Below the pieces are notes generated by a model. It saw nothing but the letters and a program-made list of their open reading frames with translations. It had not been told where the DNA came from and searched no databases. The translations under genes were made by a program, and so were the position numbers. 39,877 nucleotides of DNA from a virus, in IMG/VR virus record IMGVR_UViG_3300035670_000549, positions 1-39,877 of that record, one strand, 5' to 3'. Each line of letters starts with the position of its first letter. Within the stretch, counting starts at the first letter, position 1. Of the stretch, positions 262-39,850 are shown piece after piece.

Positions 262-891
262 ATGAAAACAATATCAAACATACCTTTTCCTGTTTCCGCT
301 AAATGGAACGAATATCAGACGGTTTTGTACTCGAATCAAACTTCATTCACAAATGAAGATGGCGAAACGATGTACGAGGCTGACATGACAATAGTAGGTG
401 AAATGCCTGTGATTGAAGTTAAGCAATCAGTCATACCCGGATTCATCCTTTGCTCAATCTCTGATTATTTCAAGATCAACAAAAAACTGTCAGATTTGAA
501 AAGCTATCAGATCGGCAAAGCAACTGAAAGAGTAAGCGGAGTTAATCCACGGGCTGCAAAAACAAATGTTCAAATTGATGAGGAAGGAAACGAAAGCTAT
601 GAAGCAAAAATAGTTTTCAAAGTTTCAAGTCAGAACCTGATTGATTACCCCGAAATCTTTGAAGGATTCGAGGTAGTTCAAAACTTTGTACCTGTTGATG
701 CACCACTTGACTTTGTTGAGTTGATGAATATCGACAGCGACACGATGCTATGGATAGCACAACACTGCATTAGGCTTCATGTCAGCTTTGATGGGCTGGT
801 GGTAAGTTTGCCGTTAGCTTATCTTGACGCTGTACCGGAAGATGTGATTAAGGCTATGAATGACTTGGGTGTAACCGTAATCTTTGAGTAA
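262..891 (+). CDS. Hypothetical protein, 209 aa
   Basis: I do not recognise this 209-residue soluble protein. It has no signal peptide or membrane helix. The N-terminal half is rich in beta-strand-like stretches, and the C-terminal part (LAYLDAVPEDVIKAMNDLGV, about residues 185-204) looks helical. The ATG follows an A-rich leader after the truncated receptor gene. Its TAA overlaps the ATG of the next small gene (TAATG), so it leads the lysis-side operon. From its place between the tail-fibre fragment and the lysis genes it may be a virion-associated or fibre accessory protein, but that is positional inference only. Confidence 0.75.
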   Translation: MKTISNIPFPVSAKWNEYQTVLYSNQTSFTNEDGETMYEADMTIVGEMPVIEVKQSVIPGFILCSISDYFKINKKLSDLKSYQIGKATERVSGVNPRAAKTNVQIDEEGNESYEAKIVFKVSSQNLIDYPEIFEGFEVVQNFVPVDAPLDFVELMNIDSDTMLWIAQHCIRLHVSFDGLVVSLPLAYLDAVPEDVIKAMNDLGVTVIFE

Positions 892-8293: not shown

Positions 8294-9660
8294 ATGAATA
8301 CCAGGAATTTTTACAAACCAAACAGCATTCAAATATTGACTATGGGATACAAGCAAAATTTATTCCCGATGCAATGTTTGATTTTCAGAAATATGTTTCT
8401 GAATATGCGATTAAAAAAGGCAGATGTGCTGTATTTTTAGATACCGGACTTGGCAAAACAATTATAGAATTAACAACTGCTCAAAATTACGTAAAACATA
8501 CAAATAAACCTGTATTGATTATAACTCCGCTTGCGGTTGCAGATCAGCATTTAAAAGAAGCCCAAAAATTCGGAATAGAAGATGTTGAGCATACTAAAAA
8601 TGGCAAGTATTCAAAAAAGATTGTTTTGATTAATTATGAAAGACTGCATTATCTAAATCCGAATGATTTTGATTGTGTTATTCTTGATGAAAGTTCTATA
8701 CTTAAAAATTTCGATGGAGCAATCAAAAGTCAGGTGACTACATTTATGAAAAAAATAAAATACAGGTATTTATTCACCGCAACTCCTTCGCCAAATGATT
8801 TTATAGAACTTGGAACCAGTTCTGAGGCCTTGGGTTATTTGGGATATACTGATATGTTGACAAAGTTTTTTACAAACAATGAGGACACAATAAAGCCTCA
8901 AAATATTGGAACAAAATGGATATTAAAAGGACATGCTGAAACTAATTTTTTTAAATGGGTTTCGTCTTGGTCTATTTCAATGAGAAAACCTTCTGATCTC
9001 GGATTTGATGACACCAGATTTATTCTGCCTGAATTAATATTAAATTACCATCCTGTTAAGAATGAAAAGAACTTAGTTGTAAATGGCCAAATCCAATTAT
9101 TTAATCAAGTAGCCAGAAGATTGACAGAGGTAAGGGATGAACAAAAACAGACAATAAAATCAAGATGTGAAAAAGCGGTTGAATTAACAGAAGGACATAA
9201 AAAATCTGTTTATTGGTGCAATCTTAACAATGAAGGTGATCTATTGAACGAAATTGATAAAACCGCATATCAGATAAAGGGATCAATGAACATTGATAAA
9301 AAAGAGGAATTACTTTTGGCTTTTTTTAACGGAGAAATTGACAGGCTTATAACTAAGCCAAAAATGACAGCCTTCGGATTAAATTGGCAGCATTGTAATC
9401 ATACTGTTTATTTCCCTACTTTTAGCTATGAACAATACTATCAATCCATTAGAAGATTTTGGAGATTTGGCCAAACAAAGCCTGTTATTTGTGATCTTGT
9501 TTTTTCGGATGGTCAAAAAAGAGTATTGGATTCACTTTTGGCCAAAACAGAAAAAGCCAATGACCTTTTCACAAAATTAAACAGCAATTTACATTCTGAC
9601 TTTCAGTTAAATAAATCAGAATTTGATAAAAAAATTCAATTACCAAACTTTTTAAATTAA
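8290..9660 (+). CDS. SNF2-type DEAD/DEAH helicase, 456 aa
   Basis: Superfamily 2 ATPase of the compact phage SNF2 type. Visible motifs: Walker A DTGLGKT (51-57), Ia PVLIITPLAV (74-83), Walker B LDESS (132-136), motif III TATPSPND (163-170), and motif VI QSIRRFWRFGQ (385-395) with its arginine fingers. It should translocate on double-stranded DNA, remodelling protein-DNA complexes or helping replication. A DNA methyltransferase follows 5 nt downstream. I see no nuclease or reader domain. Confidence 0.9.
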   Translation: MNEYQEFLQTKQHSNIDYGIQAKFIPDAMFDFQKYVSEYAIKKGRCAVFLDTGLGKTIIELTTAQNYVKHTNKPVLIITPLAVADQHLKEAQKFGIEDVEHTKNGKYSKKIVLINYERLHYLNPNDFDCVILDESSILKNFDGAIKSQVTTFMKKIKYRYLFTATPSPNDFIELGTSSEALGYLGYTDMLTKFFTNNEDTIKPQNIGTKWILKGHAETNFFKWVSSWSISMRKPSDLGFDDTRFILPELILNYHPVKNEKNLVVNGQIQLFNQVARRLTEVRDEQKQTIKSRCEKAVELTEGHKKSVYWCNLNNEGDLLNEIDKTAYQIKGSMNIDKKEELLLAFFNGEIDRLITKPKMTAFGLNWQHCNHTVYFPTFSYEQYYQSIRRFWRFGQTKPVICDLVFSDGQKRVLDSLLAKTEKANDLFTKLNSNLHSDFQLNKSEFDKKIQLPNFLN

Positions 9661-9665
9661 AACAA

Positions 9666-10649
9666 ATGATTAAAAACCAAGTTATCACTGAAGATTATGC
9701 AATTTACGAAAGTGATTGTATGTATGTTTTGCCAACATTAAAAGATGAATCTATTGATCTTTCCGTATATTCTCCGCCGTTTGCAGGATTGTATAATTAT
9801 TCAAGTTCTGAGAATGATTTTTCAAACTGCGAAACAAAGGAACAGTTTTTAAAACAGTATGAATTTTTGATAAAAGAAGTTTCAAGGGTTACAAAACCTG
9901 GGAGAATTACGGCAGTTCATTGTACGGATGTAATGGATTCAAAAACTGGGCATCTTTGGGATTTTCCTCACGAAATAATTAAATTACATGAAAAGTATGG
10001 ATTTAAATATCGAAACAGAATTACCATATGGAAGGAACCTTTAAAGGTAAGAATGAGAACAATGGTTCGTAGTTTAATGCACAAATTAATCGTAGAGGAT
10101 TCGACAGAATGCTTTACTGCAATGCCTGATTATATTTTAATATTTAAGAAAAAAGGTGAAAATGCAATTCCGGTTGAACATCCTTATGGATTACAATATT
10201 ATGCCGGAGCAAGACCGTTTACACCTGAACATGAAGAAACATACGGAAACTATTCTGATTTCCGTAAAAAATGGATTGGATTTTCAGGGGATCAGAGAGA
10301 AAACAAATTAAGTCATTTGACTTGGCAAAGATATGCCTCGGCTGTTTGGGATGACATTAGAATTGATGAGGTTCTGCAATATAAAGAAAGCAAAGATGAA
10401 GATGATGAAAAACACGTACACCCTTTACAACTTGATGTTATTGATAGAATTGTTGAACTTTATTCAAATCCTGGGGAAATTGTTTTAACTCCATTTATGG
10501 GAGTTGGATCTGAGGTTTACAGTCCGGTTTCGATGGGAAGAAAAGCAATAGGAATAGAATTAAAAGAAAGCTATTTTAGGCAAGCTGTAAAAAACCTGAA
10601 AGATGTAAAATTAAGATTTGCAGTTGACACACAACAAAAACTATTTTGA
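9666..10649 (+). CDS. Beta-class-like DNA (N4-C/N6-A) methyltransferase, 327 aa
   Basis: S-adenosylmethionine-dependent DNA amino-methyltransferase. The catalytic motif IV is SPPF (residues 36-39) near the N-terminus. The SAM-binding FMGVGS (277-282) followed by GRKAIGIEL is near the C-terminus; this order defines the beta class. SPPF is more often linked to N4-cytosine than N6-adenine methylation, though residue identity alone is not decisive. The insert between the motifs is the target-recognition region. No restriction endonuclease adjoins it, so it is likely a solitary phage methylase that protects phage DNA. Confidence 0.88.
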   Translation: MIKNQVITEDYAIYESDCMYVLPTLKDESIDLSVYSPPFAGLYNYSSSENDFSNCETKEQFLKQYEFLIKEVSRVTKPGRITAVHCTDVMDSKTGHLWDFPHEIIKLHEKYGFKYRNRITIWKEPLKVRMRTMVRSLMHKLIVEDSTECFTAMPDYILIFKKKGENAIPVEHPYGLQYYAGARPFTPEHEETYGNYSDFRKKWIGFSGDQRENKLSHLTWQRYASAVWDDIRIDEVLQYKESKDEDDEKHVHPLQLDVIDRIVELYSNPGEIVLTPFMGVGSEVYSPVSMGRKAIGIELKESYFRQAVKNLKDVKLRFAVDTQQKLF

Positions 10650-26516: not shown

Positions 26517-26900
26517 ATGGCACAAAATGCAACAAACATTATCTTGAAGGTGGCCACAAAAGAGTTAGTCGGGGAGTTGAGTTCTTCGCTTAATTCATCT
26601 GTGGACATTATTGATGTTTCATCCAAAGCAGGAGGCAGGACACGAAACATACTTCCGGGCAGGGTTTCAGAATCAATCAGTTTTGAATCCCTTGCCGATG
26701 ACACAAACGCTACGGATTGGGGTTACTCAACGGCACACGCCGCTATGGTTGCCGGTACAAAATTGGCTTTTACAATCACCAGGGCAGCCGTTACAATCAA
26801 ATCAGGGAACTGTTATATAACATCCCTTACGATGGATAACCCTGACAATGATCGGTCCACTATGTCCGGTACACTTGAAATCACAGAAGCAACATCTTAA
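26517..26900 (+). CDS. Major tail tube protein paralogue A, 127 aa
   Basis: Compact tail-tube-type protein. It shares the conserved stretches ATNIILKVATKELVGELSSS, SSKAGGRTRNILPGRVSESI and SFESLADDTNATDWGY with the next gene, along with DNPDNDRSTMSGTLEI at the end. These match the small major tail proteins (TP901-1 type) of Bacteroidota siphophages. It lies 25 nt after the terminator gene and 20 nt before its paralogue. Confidence 0.8.
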   Translation: MAQNATNIILKVATKELVGELSSSLNSSVDIIDVSSKAGGRTRNILPGRVSESISFESLADDTNATDWGYSTAHAAMVAGTKLAFTITRAAVTIKSGNCYITSLTMDNPDNDRSTMSGTLEITEATS

Positions 26901-26920: not shown

Positions 26921-27349
26921 ATGGCTCATAATGCAACAAGTATCATATTACAGGTTGAAGATACAAAACTGATTGGCGAATTATCACAAAGCCTGAACAG
27001 CGCGGTCGATGCGATTGATATTTCATCAAAAGCCGGCGGAAGGGTGAGGGAAATTCTACCCGGGCGAATCTCGGAAAGCATATCCTTTGAATCGTTGGCT
27101 GATGATACCAACAGCACCGACTACGGATATGATGATCTTTACACAGCTATGGCGGCCGGAACGTTGGTATCTGTTAAAATCCTTCGTGTTGATACGTCAT
27201 TAGTTCAGGTTGATCCATCTTTGGAAATTACCGGAAATGGCTACATTTCATCTTTGACTTTGGATAATCCCGACAACGACCGCAGCACAATGTCAGGGAC
27301 TATTGAGATTGATGGGGATTTGACAGTCACAACATATAATCCGGCGTAA
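26921..27349 (+). CDS. Major tail tube protein paralogue B, 142 aa
   Basis: Clear tandem relative of the 127-aa protein. Shared blocks: SSKAGGRVREILPGRISESI, SFESLADDTNSTDYGY, then LTLDNPDNDRSTMSGTIEI. It is 15 residues longer, through a segment before the C-terminal strand (LRVDTSLVQVDPSLEITGNG) and a small tail. Upstream reads aaatAGGAGGaaat, a strong Shine-Dalgarno-like site rarely seen in this genome, suggesting high expression. One paralogue may be the tube and the other a minor or baseplate-proximal ring. Confidence 0.8.
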   Translation: MAHNATSIILQVEDTKLIGELSQSLNSAVDAIDISSKAGGRVREILPGRISESISFESLADDTNSTDYGYDDLYTAMAAGTLVSVKILRVDTSLVQVDPSLEITGNGYISSLTLDNPDNDRSTMSGTIEIDGDLTVTTYNPA

Positions 27350-32483: not shown

Positions 32484-35400
32484 ATGAAAAAACTAATCAC
32501 AATACTACTGTTTTTTTTTAGCCTGTCGGTAATCGGACAGGATGAAATATACCTGCCGGACGTGGCATGGAGGACGAATGTAGATTCAGTAATTTTGCTG
32601 AACACGGATACCTTTTTGGTGAAGGTTGATCCTATTGATCCAAACGAACCAGGGGCGATTAATCGGGTGATCGGAAACTATTTGAAGGATTATGTAGGGC
32701 ATACTTATAAGATCATTGACAGCACATCAACAACGATTACCGTAATTGATTTGCTTGGCATTGGAACAGGCCCGCAACAGGGAAGGCAGGGCATAGTTTA
32801 CAGAACGGTAAACGAAGGAATTGCGCCATATCTTGCACCAATTTTTTATAATCAGCTTGATAATTCAGCACTTGATTATTCGAGATCTGTTGAACTTGAT
32901 GTGATTTACCGGAATTTTGACAATTATATCCATGATACAATTTGGTCAAATATCAATTCAGCTGCTCGATTGTGGGGTGGTCGTATTTGGGATAATGGCG
33001 ATGGAACAGTCGCAATTGGTGCAGGCGCAGGACTTGTGAAAGATGAAGATACAGGGCCGGAAGATATACCAATGTCAATTAATGAAGGTCAGGCAGCACA
33101 TCTTTTCTACGTAACCTGGGATTCAGTCGCATCGCTTTCGTTAACCGATGATGCATACAATTACATTTATTTAGACGGAACCGACACCACAATGAAAGCA
33201 ACCACTAATTTTTATTCAATATCATTTACCGAAGATTTCACGGTCGGAAGGGCTTATCGAAATGGGAATGATATTGTCGTGCGTCTTTGTGGTACAAACC
33301 TATGGAATTTTAACCGTAGAGTTCAGTTATTCGGGGAAGAAGTTTTTCCTGTTGTTCGTGGAACCGGATTGATTTTGGGTGAAGCGGGAACACGAAACAT
33401 CACAGTAACGGCGGGTATTCTTTGGGCGGAACTTGTGAACCGGTTTTCCGTTGATGCTTTTGATAGTTCAGCTGCCGATACTTTCAGTTATTGGTATCGC
33501 GATGGTTTAGGTGATTGGACGCAGGTAACAGGCAATTCACAAATTAATAACCTGAATTACGATGATGGCGATGGCACTTTAGGAACGCTTACTGCAAACA
33601 GATATGGCGTTCATTGGGTTTACGTGGTGCATGATGGAACGGTTCATGTAATCTACGGTCAAGGAGATTACGTTTTAGCCAATGCTCAATTAGCCACACC
33701 TCCATCAACAATACCAGGGCTTTTGGATTCGTATGCTACATTGGTTGGTAAAATAATAATTCAGAAAAGTTCAGACAGTTTCTATTCAACAGAATCGGCG
33801 TTTACTACATTCTTTCAGGTTACAGCCGCATCATCACACAATGATCTCTCAGGATTACAGGGAGGAACAGGCGGTGAATATTATCACCTGACAAGTGCGG
33901 AGTTAGTAAAATTGCAGGATTCAGCTTTGATTGCAGAAACTGATCCATATTACGCAGCAGACAGTGCAAGTATTATTTGGTTTTCTGATACTATCGCAAC
34001 CATCGCGACTAAATATGATCTTGACACGCTAAATGTGAGTAATTCAGGATGGACTGATAACGGAACTAACATAACCTTAACGACAACGACAGACACAATA
34101 AGAATAGGTGATTTTGCTGAAACACCTGCACCTTTTGAGATGAGGGTTTCGTCTGAATATGCTGTCATGTCAATCGAAAACTCATCATCAACAGGCAGTT
34201 CACCAGCAGCTATATCGGCTTATTCAGATGTTGCGACTGGCGGCGTTGGCGTGTATGGCTATGGGAATAAATACGGATTTGAAGGCGTAACTCCATTGGG
34301 CAGTTCAGGGGCCGGTGTGTATGGATCTGGGGCAATAGGCGTTGCGGGTAGCGGTTCATCTTTGGATTTAAGGGCGCAGGGTTCAGGTATAATTGAAGGC
34401 AAAGACGGGTCAGCTCCTGCGACTCCTGCGTCAGGATATTGGAGGATGTGGGGTGCAACAGATAGCTTATATTTTATCAATGACGGCGGAACGGTTTTTA
34501 ACCTTACCGAAACCGGAAGCGCAGGAGCCGAAACTGATCCTGTGTATGCAACGGATTCGGCGAGTATCGTTTGGTTTTCCGATCTTGACACTTTGTCGTT
34601 TATCAGAACCGAAAGTGATCCGGTTTATATCAATGACACGTCAAACATAGCTTATCTGAATCAGGCAAATACATTTTCACAGGATCAGTCGATTGACAAA
34701 ACAAACGCAAAATTCAACATCTATGAAAACGGAACATCGGGAGAAGCGGGATTTCAGCTATACAATCAGGCTAATTCATTAGCGGCAAAATTCGCTTGGA
34801 ATGACGCGTCAAACTATGGATTAGTCGGAACCGTTACATCCAACCCTTTTTACATTAGTGCAGCAAATACCGTTTATCAGGAAGTTGCCACAACCGGAGC
34901 CATGAAATTCAATTCATACGGATCAGGGACGTTTACCGGAACAGCTGCCAAATGGCTTGCGGTTGATGCAGGGGGAAATATCATAGAGGAAGATGCACCG
35001 ACAGGAGGCGGAGGAGGGGGTGACGTTTACAAATCAGGAACTCCGGCTGATAATTATATCGCTGTTTGGACAAACGACAGCACTATTGAAGGAACAAACG
35101 GATTATTCTATGATGGAAGTTATTTGGGAACAGGCGATGGAGATTGGATTACAATTTATGAAAATAATCAAACGACATATGACTTTTTCAAAATAAGTCC
35201 GGCTTTTTCTTCATCAAGTCCGGTTGCAAATATTTGGTACATTGGATGGGACAATTCTCTCGTAGATGCTGACATAACAGGGGGCCTTAGTTTTGACAAT
35301 GCGAACAATAAAGTATTGACATATGGCACAACGGCATTTCAGGCAAACAAGCTATATGATGATGATGGAGATGTGGGAAGTGCAGGGCAAGTATTTTCAA

Positions 35401-36317
35401 GTACAGGTAGCGGAACCGACTGGATCACTGCCGGTGGAAATGTTTCAAATACCGGAACACCTGTAAATAATCAGGTTGCAATATGGACTAATTCAACAAC
35501 AATAGAGGGGGATGCCGATTTTACATTTGACGGAACAAGCGTTGATATTACAGGAAATGTAGAGGGTGCTGCTTTTCTCGGTAAAGAGCAGGGATCGGTT
35601 TCAACTCCAGGATCGGGTCATGGTATTTATTATGCAGATACAGATGGTTATGGATATTACGTTAACGATGACGGAACAAATTATAGGCTTAGCGTTTTTC
35701 AAAATTCAACGTATGGTATTTATGCAAGCACAGACATAGGCATAAATACAACTGCTGTTTCAGGGGTATCGCTTTATGTTACAGCAAGCGGAACTGATTC
35801 AGGAGCAGGGCAATTTGTGACAACATCATCGGCTGGCAATTCGGCTGCCGTAGTCGGCCAACATACTTATACTTCTGGAACTATTTATGGCGGTTATTTC
35901 ACAGCCAACGAAAGCGCGGGAGGCGTTGGAGTTTATGGGGCCGGTGATGCTTATGACTTTTATGCGGGAGGATCAGGAACGGATTACGGCACATCATCAT
36001 CTATTAGGTGGAAAAATAACGTGGTTCCAATTTCTAATCCTTTGCGAAAATTAAGCAAGATTGATGGTGTTTATTTTGATTGGGACCAGGAACACGGCGG
36101 AAAACATTCAGTCGGATTTATTGCTGAACAAGTCGGAGAAGTATTGCCTGAAATCGTTGACTATGAAAAGGATTCTGAGTATGCAATAGGAATGGATTAC
36201 AGTAAAATAACGCCATTACTTGTTGAAGCGGTTAAGGCGCAGCAAAAACAGATCAATATCATGTATGTTGTGATCGGGTTGATGTTTGTAATTTTGATCT
36301 GGAAAATAAAGAAGTAA
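32484..36317 (+). CDS. Large tail fibre with signal peptide and C-terminal S74 chaperone, 1277 aa
   Basis: Receptor-contacting fibre. A Sec-like N-terminus (MKKLITILLFFFSLSVIGQD) opens it. Long beta-repeat regions follow, including repeated ETDPYYAADSASIIWFSD-type segments at about 487, 685 and 711. The C-terminal domain from about residue 1172 aligns with the Peptidase_S74 intramolecular chaperone (SSIRWKNNV for SDRRLKTNI, then GVYFDWDQEHGGKHSVGFIA, EQVGEVLPEIVDYEKDSEYA). The catalytic-type Ser and Lys are present. A membrane helix (MYVVIGLMFVILIW) follows the domain. The S74 part is normally self-cleaved after trimerisation. Confidence 0.88.
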   Translation: MKKLITILLFFFSLSVIGQDEIYLPDVAWRTNVDSVILLNTDTFLVKVDPIDPNEPGAINRVIGNYLKDYVGHTYKIIDSTSTTITVIDLLGIGTGPQQGRQGIVYRTVNEGIAPYLAPIFYNQLDNSALDYSRSVELDVIYRNFDNYIHDTIWSNINSAARLWGGRIWDNGDGTVAIGAGAGLVKDEDTGPEDIPMSINEGQAAHLFYVTWDSVASLSLTDDAYNYIYLDGTDTTMKATTNFYSISFTEDFTVGRAYRNGNDIVVRLCGTNLWNFNRRVQLFGEEVFPVVRGTGLILGEAGTRNITVTAGILWAELVNRFSVDAFDSSAADTFSYWYRDGLGDWTQVTGNSQINNLNYDDGDGTLGTLTANRYGVHWVYVVHDGTVHVIYGQGDYVLANAQLATPPSTIPGLLDSYATLVGKIIIQKSSDSFYSTESAFTTFFQVTAASSHNDLSGLQGGTGGEYYHLTSAELVKLQDSALIAETDPYYAADSASIIWFSDTIATIATKYDLDTLNVSNSGWTDNGTNITLTTTTDTIRIGDFAETPAPFEMRVSSEYAVMSIENSSSTGSSPAAISAYSDVATGGVGVYGYGNKYGFEGVTPLGSSGAGVYGSGAIGVAGSGSSLDLRAQGSGIIEGKDGSAPATPASGYWRMWGATDSLYFINDGGTVFNLTETGSAGAETDPVYATDSASIVWFSDLDTLSFIRTESDPVYINDTSNIAYLNQANTFSQDQSIDKTNAKFNIYENGTSGEAGFQLYNQANSLAAKFAWNDASNYGLVGTVTSNPFYISAANTVYQEVATTGAMKFNSYGSGTFTGTAAKWLAVDAGGNIIEEDAPTGGGGGGDVYKSGTPADNYIAVWTNDSTIEGTNGLFYDGSYLGTGDGDWITIYENNQTTYDFFKISPAFSSSSPVANIWYIGWDNSLVDADITGGLSFDNANNKVLTYGTTAFQANKLYDDDGDVGSAGQVFSSTGSGTDWITAGGNVSNTGTPVNNQVAIWTNSTTIEGDADFTFDGTSVDITGNVEGAAFLGKEQGSVSTPGSGHGIYYADTDGYGYYVNDDGTNYRLSVFQNSTYGIYASTDIGINTTAVSGVSLYVTASGTDSGAGQFVTTSSAGNSAAVVGQHTYTSGTIYGGYFTANESAGGVGVYGAGDAYDFYAGGSGTDYGTSSSIRWKNNVVPISNPLRKLSKIDGVYFDWDQEHGGKHSVGFIAEQVGEVLPEIVDYEKDSEYAIGMDYSKITPLLVEAVKAQQKQINIMYVVIGLMFVILIWKIKK

Positions 36318-36682: not shown

Positions 36683-38539
36683 ATGCCGCAGACTTTCAGA
36701 AGGACTTTCCGATCAACATTGCGGAGGGTGTATATTGCCACATCACAAACCTTCCAGCGGTTTCTTGCATGGTTCAACGCCTACGTTATCCGTGTCGAAG
36801 CAGATAGCGGAACAGTACAAGATGAAACCCTGACCAAAGAAATCTTCCAGCATCTTCAAGACAACGACACCTACGACAATACTCTGTTGTTGATAACTCC
36901 CGAAGGCGGCATAAAGACAAGGGTAAGCGGAAGTAATACGTTTGTCACGAAGGCGTATGATTTTTCCGGTAGTGCAACTCCCAACGATGCCACCCAAACC
37001 ACAGAAGGCAACCAACCGCATCTTAGTGGCAACATCGCACCAAATGAACGGTTAGCTTTCAAGAATCCAAATGGTGATGACACCTATCTGACACATCCGG
37101 CAATTAGCTTTGCAGCAGATGAGGCGTGGAGTGTGACTACGGTGGTGGGGTGGAATTGCGGATCACAAACAGCATCTTACTTATTTGGAAGCAATAGTGA
37201 TACGTCAGGAATTTTTGGTCTTAGAGTTGGAAATTTAAATAAATTTAGGTTTCTTAACAATTCTGCTACATCAGTAACATCAGCGGAGTTTACAAATAAT
37301 GTAGTCGGTAAATTAAGTATATTGACATTAATTGCCGCAGGTGATGGCAGCTTGAAGATATACGTAAATGGATCGATCTATTCCACATTGACAATAGCTA
37401 CCAATTTTACATTTGATTTTTTATATAAAGGAACTTCCTTCACTGTATTTTTACATGAAGGCAAAATCCCCTATCACCGCATCCAACGTTCTGCCATGAC
37501 CGCTGCACAAGTATTATCAGAAGCTACGTTTCTGAGGAGCAAGTATCCGATCATCGAAACCGTTACAATAGGCACACAGGAATGGGCAACGAGTAATTTG
37601 GAAGTTGTTGCCACACCAGTCGGAAACGTGATAGCCGAAATGCAAGCTGCGGCGAGTGTGGAGAAGATTAGCGGTGGTGATTTTGAGGGGGGACTGCCTG
37701 GGACGTTGGCAAGTGGTGATGAAACATCAACTTGGGCACTTAATGCGACTGATCCGATAGGCGGAACACAGGATGGATTATTGGAAGTTACGAGTGCGGG
37801 GACAAATTCGTTAAGACCACTTATTACCATTGGATCTGTAAGGACTGTTGGCAAATGGTATAAATTATCATTCAACTATAAAGTAAATTCTGGTACTTGC
37901 GTCTTGTCGAGAATATATTCAGGTACATCAGTTATTGTAAACGCTACATTGTCTGGATCTGGAATGTTTGAGTATTATTATAAAGCTACCGGAAACGTGC
38001 AGAACTTATATTTCAACGGCACAAACACCTTTTCAGTTCAGCTTGACAACATAAGCGATGTTGAATTGGGTTGGGAAGACGCAACCACTCTCTACACTTG
38101 GCTGACAACAACAGGAGGATACAGTGAAGCAAATGCGTTGAAGGAAGTTGGATGGTGGGCACATTATAGTTCAGACACTGCGAAAGGGGCTATATTCGGC
38201 AAGGCCTACAACGGCTATGCTCTTGACCTGCTTGATGCTGATATAGATGCTTATAATACAGCAAATCCAACAGCAGAATGGGGTTATCATTTACCCACAC
38301 AGGCAGAACAGGAAACCCTGCAAGACTACTTAGGAGCTGATTCAGGTGATGACTTGAAAGCTGATAGCTTGTGGACTGATGGTACAGGAACAAACAGTTC
38401 AGGATTTACAGCACTACCGGGTGGTTATCGTGATTCAGACGGCACATTCAGGGGCATCAATGAATTTACAATCTTAGGTGCTGTTGATGATGATATTGAT
38501 AAGAGGATAGGAAGATACATAAGATTAATAAAAGACTAA
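36683..38539 (+). CDS. LamG plus FISUMP-domain tail protein, 618 aa
   Basis: A short basic N-terminus (RRTFRSTLRRVYIATSQTFQ) probably docks on the virion. Residues about 90-290 form a LamG/concanavalin-like domain (HPAISFAADEAWSVTTVVGW, DGSLKIYVNGSIYSTLTIAT). A FISUMP domain follows (TIGTQEWATSNLEVVATPVG at about 293-312). It is interrupted by about 140 residues of carbohydrate-binding-like sequence (FEGGLPGTLASGDETSTWAL to LYFNGTNTFSVQLDNISDVE). It then resumes with WWAHYSSDTAKGAIFGKAYN, EWGYHLPTQAEQETLQDYLG and SSGFTALPGGYRDSDGTFRG. Likely an accessory adhesin working beside the variable lectin. Confidence 0.8.
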   Translation: MPQTFRRTFRSTLRRVYIATSQTFQRFLAWFNAYVIRVEADSGTVQDETLTKEIFQHLQDNDTYDNTLLLITPEGGIKTRVSGSNTFVTKAYDFSGSATPNDATQTTEGNQPHLSGNIAPNERLAFKNPNGDDTYLTHPAISFAADEAWSVTTVVGWNCGSQTASYLFGSNSDTSGIFGLRVGNLNKFRFLNNSATSVTSAEFTNNVVGKLSILTLIAAGDGSLKIYVNGSIYSTLTIATNFTFDFLYKGTSFTVFLHEGKIPYHRIQRSAMTAAQVLSEATFLRSKYPIIETVTIGTQEWATSNLEVVATPVGNVIAEMQAAASVEKISGGDFEGGLPGTLASGDETSTWALNATDPIGGTQDGLLEVTSAGTNSLRPLITIGSVRTVGKWYKLSFNYKVNSGTCVLSRIYSGTSVIVNATLSGSGMFEYYYKATGNVQNLYFNGTNTFSVQLDNISDVELGWEDATTLYTWLTTTGGYSEANALKEVGWWAHYSSDTAKGAIFGKAYNGYALDLLDADIDAYNTANPTAEWGYHLPTQAEQETLQDYLGADSGDDLKADSLWTDGTGTNSSGFTALPGGYRDSDGTFRGINEFTILGAVDDDIDKRIGRYIRLIKD

Positions 38540-39826
38540 ATGATATACTTAGAAAACGATCAGGCAGACAGGTTGTATTACGGTGTAAGTTGGGATATTA
38601 CAGCAACTTCACCCGATTGCACAAGGACAGGATCAGCCTATCTGCATAATTTATTACCCGTTCATCAAAGAATGAGAACGGCACTATTAAACGCTGACGG
38701 AACGGTGAATTACTACTTAAACCCAACCGATTGGACATTACAAGAGGATGGCACAGCAAGCGATCTCTCAGGCGGTGACGGTGAAGTAATGACAAGATTA
38801 CCTGATGCTTATTGGCAATTTGTGACAGCAGGAAACTTGCGTGAAGTGCGTGTTTCATTAGAACAATTCACTGGCTCAACATTCATCGAAGGTCAGTGGG
38901 TATCATCTTTTGAGGGGGTATTAGATAGGACTAATTCTATCATGAGAAGTATCATCAATACTGATGCTCAGTATCGTGGAGGAAACAATACTTCAGCTTG
39001 GGACGCAGCTGTAAACAGTTTGTTAGGGATGCCTTTCTCAAATGTTTCCCGCACAAACATGAGAACTTACGCACGCGCAAGGGGAACTGGATGGGAGATG
39101 TACAATTATAAGGCCCATAAATTGATGTGGTGGCTGTTTGTGACTGAATACGCAACACGGAATAGCCAAAAGGCTGTAAATACTGCGTTAGACGCAAATG
39201 GATACAAACAGGGCGGTCTTGGAAATGGAGTGAGTACAGCTGACGGCACGGAATGGAATAATTTCAATAGCTATAATCCATTCATACCTTGTGGTGCATC
39301 GAATACCCTTGCAGATGGATCAGGAGAAGTTTCAGTAACAATAACTGATTTCGGGGGCGCAGGAACAGACAGAACATTCAAAGTGCCTCGGTATCGTGGA
39401 ATTGAAAATCCTTTTGGACATATCTGGAAGAATGTTGACGGTATAAATATCAAAATTCAGGCAGACGGTGATGGCGGGGAAACTCAAACATGGATAGCAG
39501 ATGATCCTGCCGACTGGAATGACAGCAATTACACAAACTACACAAATGTAGGATTGCTACCGCGGGCAAATGGATATATGTCTCAGGCATTGTTCGGCAG
39601 TGGTGGTGAATTTCTTCCGTCTGTAGCATCAGGAGGAAGTGCTACATATTTCTGTGATTACTGGTATACATCATTACCGGCAAGTGGTGAGTCTTTACGC
39701 ACCCTCCTGGTCGGCGGTGCTGCGAATTATGGCGCGTATGCGGGTTTCGTGCTTTCGAATTCGAATTATGCGCCTTCGAGTGCGAATGCGGCTTTCGGGT
39801 CTCGCCTTTGCTTTATGGGTGCATAG
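38540..39826 (+). CDS. DGR target: lectin-like receptor-binding protein with variable C-terminus, 428 aa
   Basis: Terminal tail protein, presumably the host receptor binder. The N-terminal third (residues 1-130) is an attachment domain. The C-terminal part has the DGR C-type-lectin-like features: YRGIENPFGHIWKNVDGINI (about 293-312), TYFCDYWYTSLPASGESLRT at about 367-386, LVGGAANYGAYAGF and the final SFGSRLCFMGA. Variable residues are 396-418 (codons 39725-39793). Residues 354-395 are identical to the truncated copy at 1-126. The stop codon lies inside the first of two tandem hairpins. Confidence 0.85.
   Translation: MIYLENDQADRLYYGVSWDITATSPDCTRTGSAYLHNLLPVHQRMRTALLNADGTVNYYLNPTDWTLQEDGTASDLSGGDGEVMTRLPDAYWQFVTAGNLREVRVSLEQFTGSTFIEGQWVSSFEGVLDRTNSIMRSIINTDAQYRGGNNTSAWDAAVNSLLGMPFSNVSRTNMRTYARARGTGWEMYNYKAHKLMWWLFVTEYATRNSQKAVNTALDANGYKQGGLGNGVSTADGTEWNNFNSYNPFIPCGASNTLADGSGEVSVTITDFGGAGTDRTFKVPRYRGIENPFGHIWKNVDGINIKIQADGDGGETQTWIADDPADWNDSNYTNYTNVGLLPRANGYMSQALFGSGGEFLPSVASGGSATYFCDYWYTSLPASGESLRTLLVGGAANYGAYAGFVLSNSNYAPSSANAAFGSRLCFMGA
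39599..39724 (+). repeat. 126-bp direct repeat, right copy (matches 1-126)
   Basis: Identical to bases 1-126 and in frame as residues 354-395. Adenine-rich stretches inside it are unchanged, marking the left limit of the mutated segment at about 39725. Confidence 0.95.
39725..39814 (+). other. DGR variable repeat (VR), right copy
   Basis: The variable codons 39725-39793 are followed by the 21-bp segment 39794-39814, which is identical to 196-216 and ends CTTTGCTTT. That is the expected place for the initiation of mutagenic homing. Two hairpins start 2 nt further on. Non-synonymous first and second positions dominate the differences to copy 1. Confidence 0.8.
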
Positions 39827-39831
39827 CACCC
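39817..39831 (+). other. Hairpin 1 downstream of the VR (overlaps the stop codon)
   Basis: GGGTGC (39817-39822), loop ATA, GCACCC (39826-39831): a perfect 6-bp stem. The TAG stop at 39824-39826 lies in loop and stem. There is no T-run, so it is not an intrinsic terminator. Confidence 0.75.
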
Positions 39832-39833
39832 CG

Positions 39834-39850
39834 GGTCTGCATGGCAGACC
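39834..39850 (+). other. Hairpin 2 downstream of the VR
   Basis: GGTCTGC (39834-39840), loop ATG, GCAGACC (39844-39850): a perfect 7-bp stem, 2 nt after hairpin 1. DGR targets such as the Bordetella phage mtd gene carry a GC-rich hairpin or cruciform just after the VR that aids homing. This one fits by position. Confidence 0.7.

Follow-up and report, generated by a model that had tools for sequence, protein, structure and literature searches.

In Bordetella phage BPP-1, a diversity-generating retroelement (DGR) acts on the tail receptor protein Mtd, the variable repeat (VR) lying at the 3' end of the gene, within a C-type-lectin-type fold, and ending in an invariant 3' block, with a hairpin just downstream that overlaps the stop codon (PMC3240598). 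In other phages the hairpin that follows the VR carries a GRNA tetraloop (PMC3240598). The locus described here shares these features of BPP-1 and differs from it in that the contig holds neither a template repeat (TR) nor a reverse transcriptase (RT), and in that its hairpins have the loops ATA and ATG instead of GRNA. Other known DGR targets include the tentaclins of gut phages, in which a DGR-varied C-type lectin is N-terminal and is followed by Ig domains (PMC10743442), and TaqVP, the DGR variable protein of Thermus aquaticus (PDB 5vf4). To these may be added DGRs of Bacteroidota phages and prophages with targets of PHROG 5302 (loci L003, L004, L008-L011, L013, and others); these targets are 43 to 62% identical to the protein studied here and carry the VR in the same place, but they are followed by a TR and then an RT, whereas the present contig has neither and its second copy of the VR joins the next gene, at position 262, directly.

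The window analyzed is the complete IMG/VR record IMGVR_UViG_3300035670_000549, 39,877 bp, classed as linear. On its plus strand, a gene encoding 428 amino acids (38540-39826) carries one VR, copy A, at its 3' end, and direct comparison showed that positions 1-126 are identical to 39599-39724 at every base, synonymous sites included. The 69 nt that follow (127-195 in copy B, 39725-39793 in copy A) differ by 21 substitutions and no indel, and the next 21 nt (196-216 and 39794-39814) are again identical, after which the copies diverge completely. The first-pass annotation had reported this succession of blocks, as well as a distribution of 14, 5, and 2 changes over codon positions 1, 2, and 3, and both proved exact on recheck. 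The changes hit 16 of the 23 codons and alter 15 amino acids within residues 396-418 of 428; codon 414 reads AGT in one copy and TCT in the other, Ser both times. No other 25-mer is shared within the window, so the repeat is not a product of chance. Since the window is the whole record, 1-225, with a stop codon at 223-225, is a gene end truncated where the contig begins. Because 1-126 lies at the extreme left of the contig, a point that the first-pass annotation does not make, one complete gene stands at the right end, and the left end has the 3' part of another copy of the same kind. The VR thus lies at the 3' end of the gene and is bounded by an invariant segment in the position of an IMH, as expected of a DGR; the 22-mer TTTCGGGTCTCGCCTTTGCTTT at this place occurs exactly in relative L006 as well. 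As set out below, the best explanation of the pair, and in our view the probable one, is that A and B are two alleles from one phage population, met at the assembly break of a circular genome, with A linked to a DGR and B either cassette-less or targeted remotely.

The product of 38540-39826 matches PHROG 5302, a tail protein family (E=6.4e-110), and its AlphaFold2 model, built with 63 related sequences, reached a mean pLDDT of 95.3 and a pTM of 0.93. A sequence search of the PDB returned no related solved structure. A Foldseek search of the PDB placed TaqVP first (5vf4, E=5.7e-8), followed by Mtd (1yu4, E=3e-3) and its Bordetella phage variants (E 3e-3 to 2e-2), then by formylglycine-generating-enzyme-like proteins, with TvpA as a marginal match (E=1.0). 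The model therefore shows the C-type-lectin-type fold of DGR variable proteins for which the first-pass annotation had proposed to look, through its matches to TaqVP and Mtd. Even so, TaqVP is only 13% identical to the target, with a TM-score of 0.41, and falls outside the tail protein family of the target by sequence, and the whole-chain similarity to Mtd is weak. Among viral models, the crAss-like phage tail proteins cr55_1, cr7_1, and cr85_1 came closest, sharing the fold along the whole chain (TM 0.92 to 0.93). Membership in the tentaclins, which share with the target a DGR-varied C-type lectin, was rejected by topology, the variable lectin end being C-terminal here. Judged from sequence and predicted structure, the gene is thus a putative DGR target encoding a phage tail protein. 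The gene adjoining it upstream (36683-38539) ends in a Fib_succ_major domain (PF09603) and is possibly a second, nondiversified adhesin. Further upstream lie a large tail fiber gene (32484-36317), whose product has an S74 chaperone domain (PF13884) at its C terminus, and two adjacent major-tail-protein-like gene copies (26517-26900 and 26921-27349) that are 63% identical, the first assigned to PHROG 1407.

Relatives encoding the target gene were collected from IMG/VR (80 loci) and from genomes (28 loci), and 106 loci were scored for TR and RT. A TR lies nearby in 88 of the 106, mostly 164 to 749 nt from the VR, and 86 of those 88 also have a DGR-type RT. Pooled over the 88 loci, 1,492 of 1,539 VR/TR mismatches (97%) face a template A, a base that makes up 29% of the templates; this bias is the signature of a DGR. 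The RTs match RVT_1 and carry (I/V)GxxxSQ, where GxxxSQ stands in the place of the usual motif, QGxxxSP. Since the bacterial-genome loci with the target gene are mostly from Bacteroidota, the host is probably a member of this phylum too.

Departures from the complete arrangement were also found. Of the 91 relatives whose downstream sequence extends for 2.5 kb or more, six have neither TR nor RT nearby, and the cassette-less or decayed relatives are L006, L014, L030, L058, L074, L079, L088, and L108. In L014 about 102 residues of the RT (9545-10168) remain, joined in frame to a C-terminal portion that belongs to the family of the next gene; VR, hairpin, and TR are kept beside it, as in a decaying cassette. 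L088 (3478-3620) retains the target gene with its VR and hairpin but has no TR or RT, and an apparent tail of the next gene's family left behind suggests a clean deletion of the cassette. The record of L058 (G004:C1:54308-55153) has a cassette-free target and, elsewhere, a distant RT-like open reading frame, a candidate for a remote DGR. In L085 (707-4060) a single TR and RT follow a tandem pair of target genes that are 75% identical.

The differences between A and B were compared with the adenines of 33 nonredundant templates from relatives, the window itself holding no TR. The mean template-A frequency is 0.59 at the 21 differing sites and 0.21 at the other 48 sites of the variable block (permutation P=0.0005; P=0.014 when stratified by codon position). 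At ten of the 21 sites at least 94% of the templates have A, and at five sites 21 to 58% do. The remaining six (143, 148, 152, 153, 154, and 157), at which A occurs in at most 15% of the templates, count against the best explanation. Where two relatives share one TR sequence, their differences fall at a template A in 278 of 292 cases, with no more than three exceptions per pair, whereas A and B show six rare-A sites, and for this reason the two were probably written from different templates; a difference of template or strain in 143-157 is likelier than a single shared template. A TR of this phage may nevertheless have A at these six sites.

Hypervariation without a DGR, through positive selection or generic recombination of tail genes between strains, would fit the six nonadenine differences in 143-157 and the unlike DNA that follows the two copies. 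It is, however, difficult to reconcile with the sharp edges of the block, the enrichment for template A, the DGR-type fold, and a TR and RT in 86 of 106 relatives, and we regard it as very improbable. The claim of the first-pass annotation thus stands in kind, a DGR-varied tail gene being supported by the fold, the TRs and RTs of relatives, and the adenine bias, while the 228 bp alone do not demonstrate the rewriting of one VR from one template.

A second alternative places two target genes in one genome: the first would end in A, with hairpins, TR, and RT behind it, and the other, a recent duplicate, would end in B and lead into gene 262, a single DGR serving both. Multitarget DGRs are documented (PMC10743442, PMC8008677), L085 has two targets before its single RT, and the DNA downstream of A is unlike that downstream of B. 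On the other hand, the examined flanks of the 88 TR-bearing loci held no second VR, the pair in L085, the only tandem pair seen, is 75% identical compared with 100% over 126 nt here, and the framework differences argue against a common template for A and B. We therefore consider this arrangement unlikely.

Beyond the target gene the contig has 51 nt left, at the place where TR and then RT lie in relatives, and the search of the rest of the genome for both, proposed by the first-pass annotation, found neither in this contig. An RVT_1 profile and tblastn with the RT of L003 detected no RT in the 39,877-bp window, and no TR was found there, the A/B pair being the only repeat of at least 25 nt; the lack of both RT and TR in the contig counts against the best explanation. 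Copy B was rejected as a TR because its reading frame is open and its variable codons hold few adenines. Also counting against that explanation, a contig continuing copy A was not recovered, the exact hairpin pattern having no match in IMG/VR and two guessed template 21-mers likewise none. For the phage backbone, 1-12000 had no near match in INPHARED, and the upstream tail gene had none in IMG/VR.

What remains downstream of copy A consists of two GC-rich hairpins just 3' of the VR, with stems of 6 and 7 bp, as in cassette-bearing relatives. Hairpin 1 (39817-39831, GGGTGC-ATA-GCACCC) overlaps the stop codon and recurs with nearly the same sequence at the same position in L010, L011, L013, and L088; hairpin 2 (GGTCTGC-ATG-GCAGACC) spans 39834-39850. 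Their 3-nt loops, in place of the 4-nt GRNA loop (PMC3240598), count against the best explanation. As a general marker the post-VR hairpin is weak, a perfect stem of at least 5 bp being present in 35 of 86 relatives with TR and RT and in about 19% of shuffles. Downstream of copy B there is neither hairpin nor cassette but a gene for 209 amino acids of unknown function (262-891, plus strand), and in L006 a homologue of it (41%) likewise lies directly 3' of the target gene, again with no hairpin and no cassette, forming the same junction. The N terminus of gene 262 resembles that of the gene found 3' of the DGR cassette/RT region in L008-L011 and L013 (hhalign probability 90.3, E=1.5e-6). These two observations place both contig ends in one neighborhood.

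Because B and L006 have neither hairpin nor cassette, and some relatives are cassette-free or decayed, copy B may be (i) a cassette-less allele or (ii) a target served remotely. A variant of this reasoning would make copy B and L006 orphan VRs, which have lost the cassette or are rewritten by a remote or trans-acting RT, with the A/B difference brought about by ordinary recombination between strains. The missing hairpins, the six of 91 relatives with neither TR nor RT nearby, the hairpin of L088 with no TR or RT, the shortened and fused RT of L014, and the RT elsewhere in the record of L058 all agree with it. It overlaps with the best explanation, however, and past writing of B by a DGR would be datable only from reads; we consider it possible but somewhat doubtful.

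The preferred reading, that of two alleles at an assembly break, also accounts for where the contig ends. The contig encodes terminase, portal, head protease, capsid, tail, lysis, and replication genes as well, so that the simplest reading would be a genome that is almost complete and either circular or permuted. Among the 80 IMG/VR contigs of relatives, seven terminate no more than 200 nt after the target gene, compared with 0 to 3 in other 200-nt bins, and a study of gut phages has remarked that DGR variable repeats break assemblies (PMC8008677). The overlap of 126 nt would correspond to k-1 if the assembler, as is common, was run with k=127. This figure and the full divergence of A and B after the block would also suit a chimera in which unrelated phages were joined at a common 126-mer; since the target in L006 is followed by a member of the gene 262 family, and the cassette in L008-L013 by a gene whose N terminus is similar, the ends share a neighborhood, and we think such an artifact highly unlikely. 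A and B are most simply two alleles of a population at an assembly break, with differing downstream DNA.

Under the preferred reading, a DGR RT would copy the TR with errors at adenines, and its product would replace the 3' end of the target gene, altering residues in the C-type-lectin-like domain of the tail protein with which a siphophage-like virus of Bacteroidota would bind its receptor; the change in receptor specificity proposed by the first-pass annotation may follow. Because the DGR would rewrite this part of the gene, the population would hold many versions of the 69-nt block, which the assembler could not cross, and a circular or circularly permuted genome would be cut there. The right contig end would then run into allele A, its hairpins, and the DGR cassette, with TR and RT presumably just past 39877, and the left end would begin 126 nt before the branch and take allele B into gene 262 with no cassette. 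Both the circular closure and the allelic relation of A and B belong to this reconstruction.

To conclude, the A/B block is the variable region of the target gene, probably caught in two allelic forms where the assembly broke, and DGR targets of this kind are already known. DGR-varied receptors are a known way for phages to track changes of the host surface, and the contig shows how a DGR target gene can hide: as assemblies are interrupted within its variable block, the contig loses RT and TR, and the phage appears to be free of DGRs. A further possibility, which we hold to be less likely than not, is that DGR-linked and cassette-free alleles exist side by side in one population, with gain or loss of the cassette at one fixed site where the target meets gene 262, and that lineages may alternate between diversifying and frozen receptors. 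The cassette-less and decayed relatives turn cassette loss versus remote targeting into a testable question.
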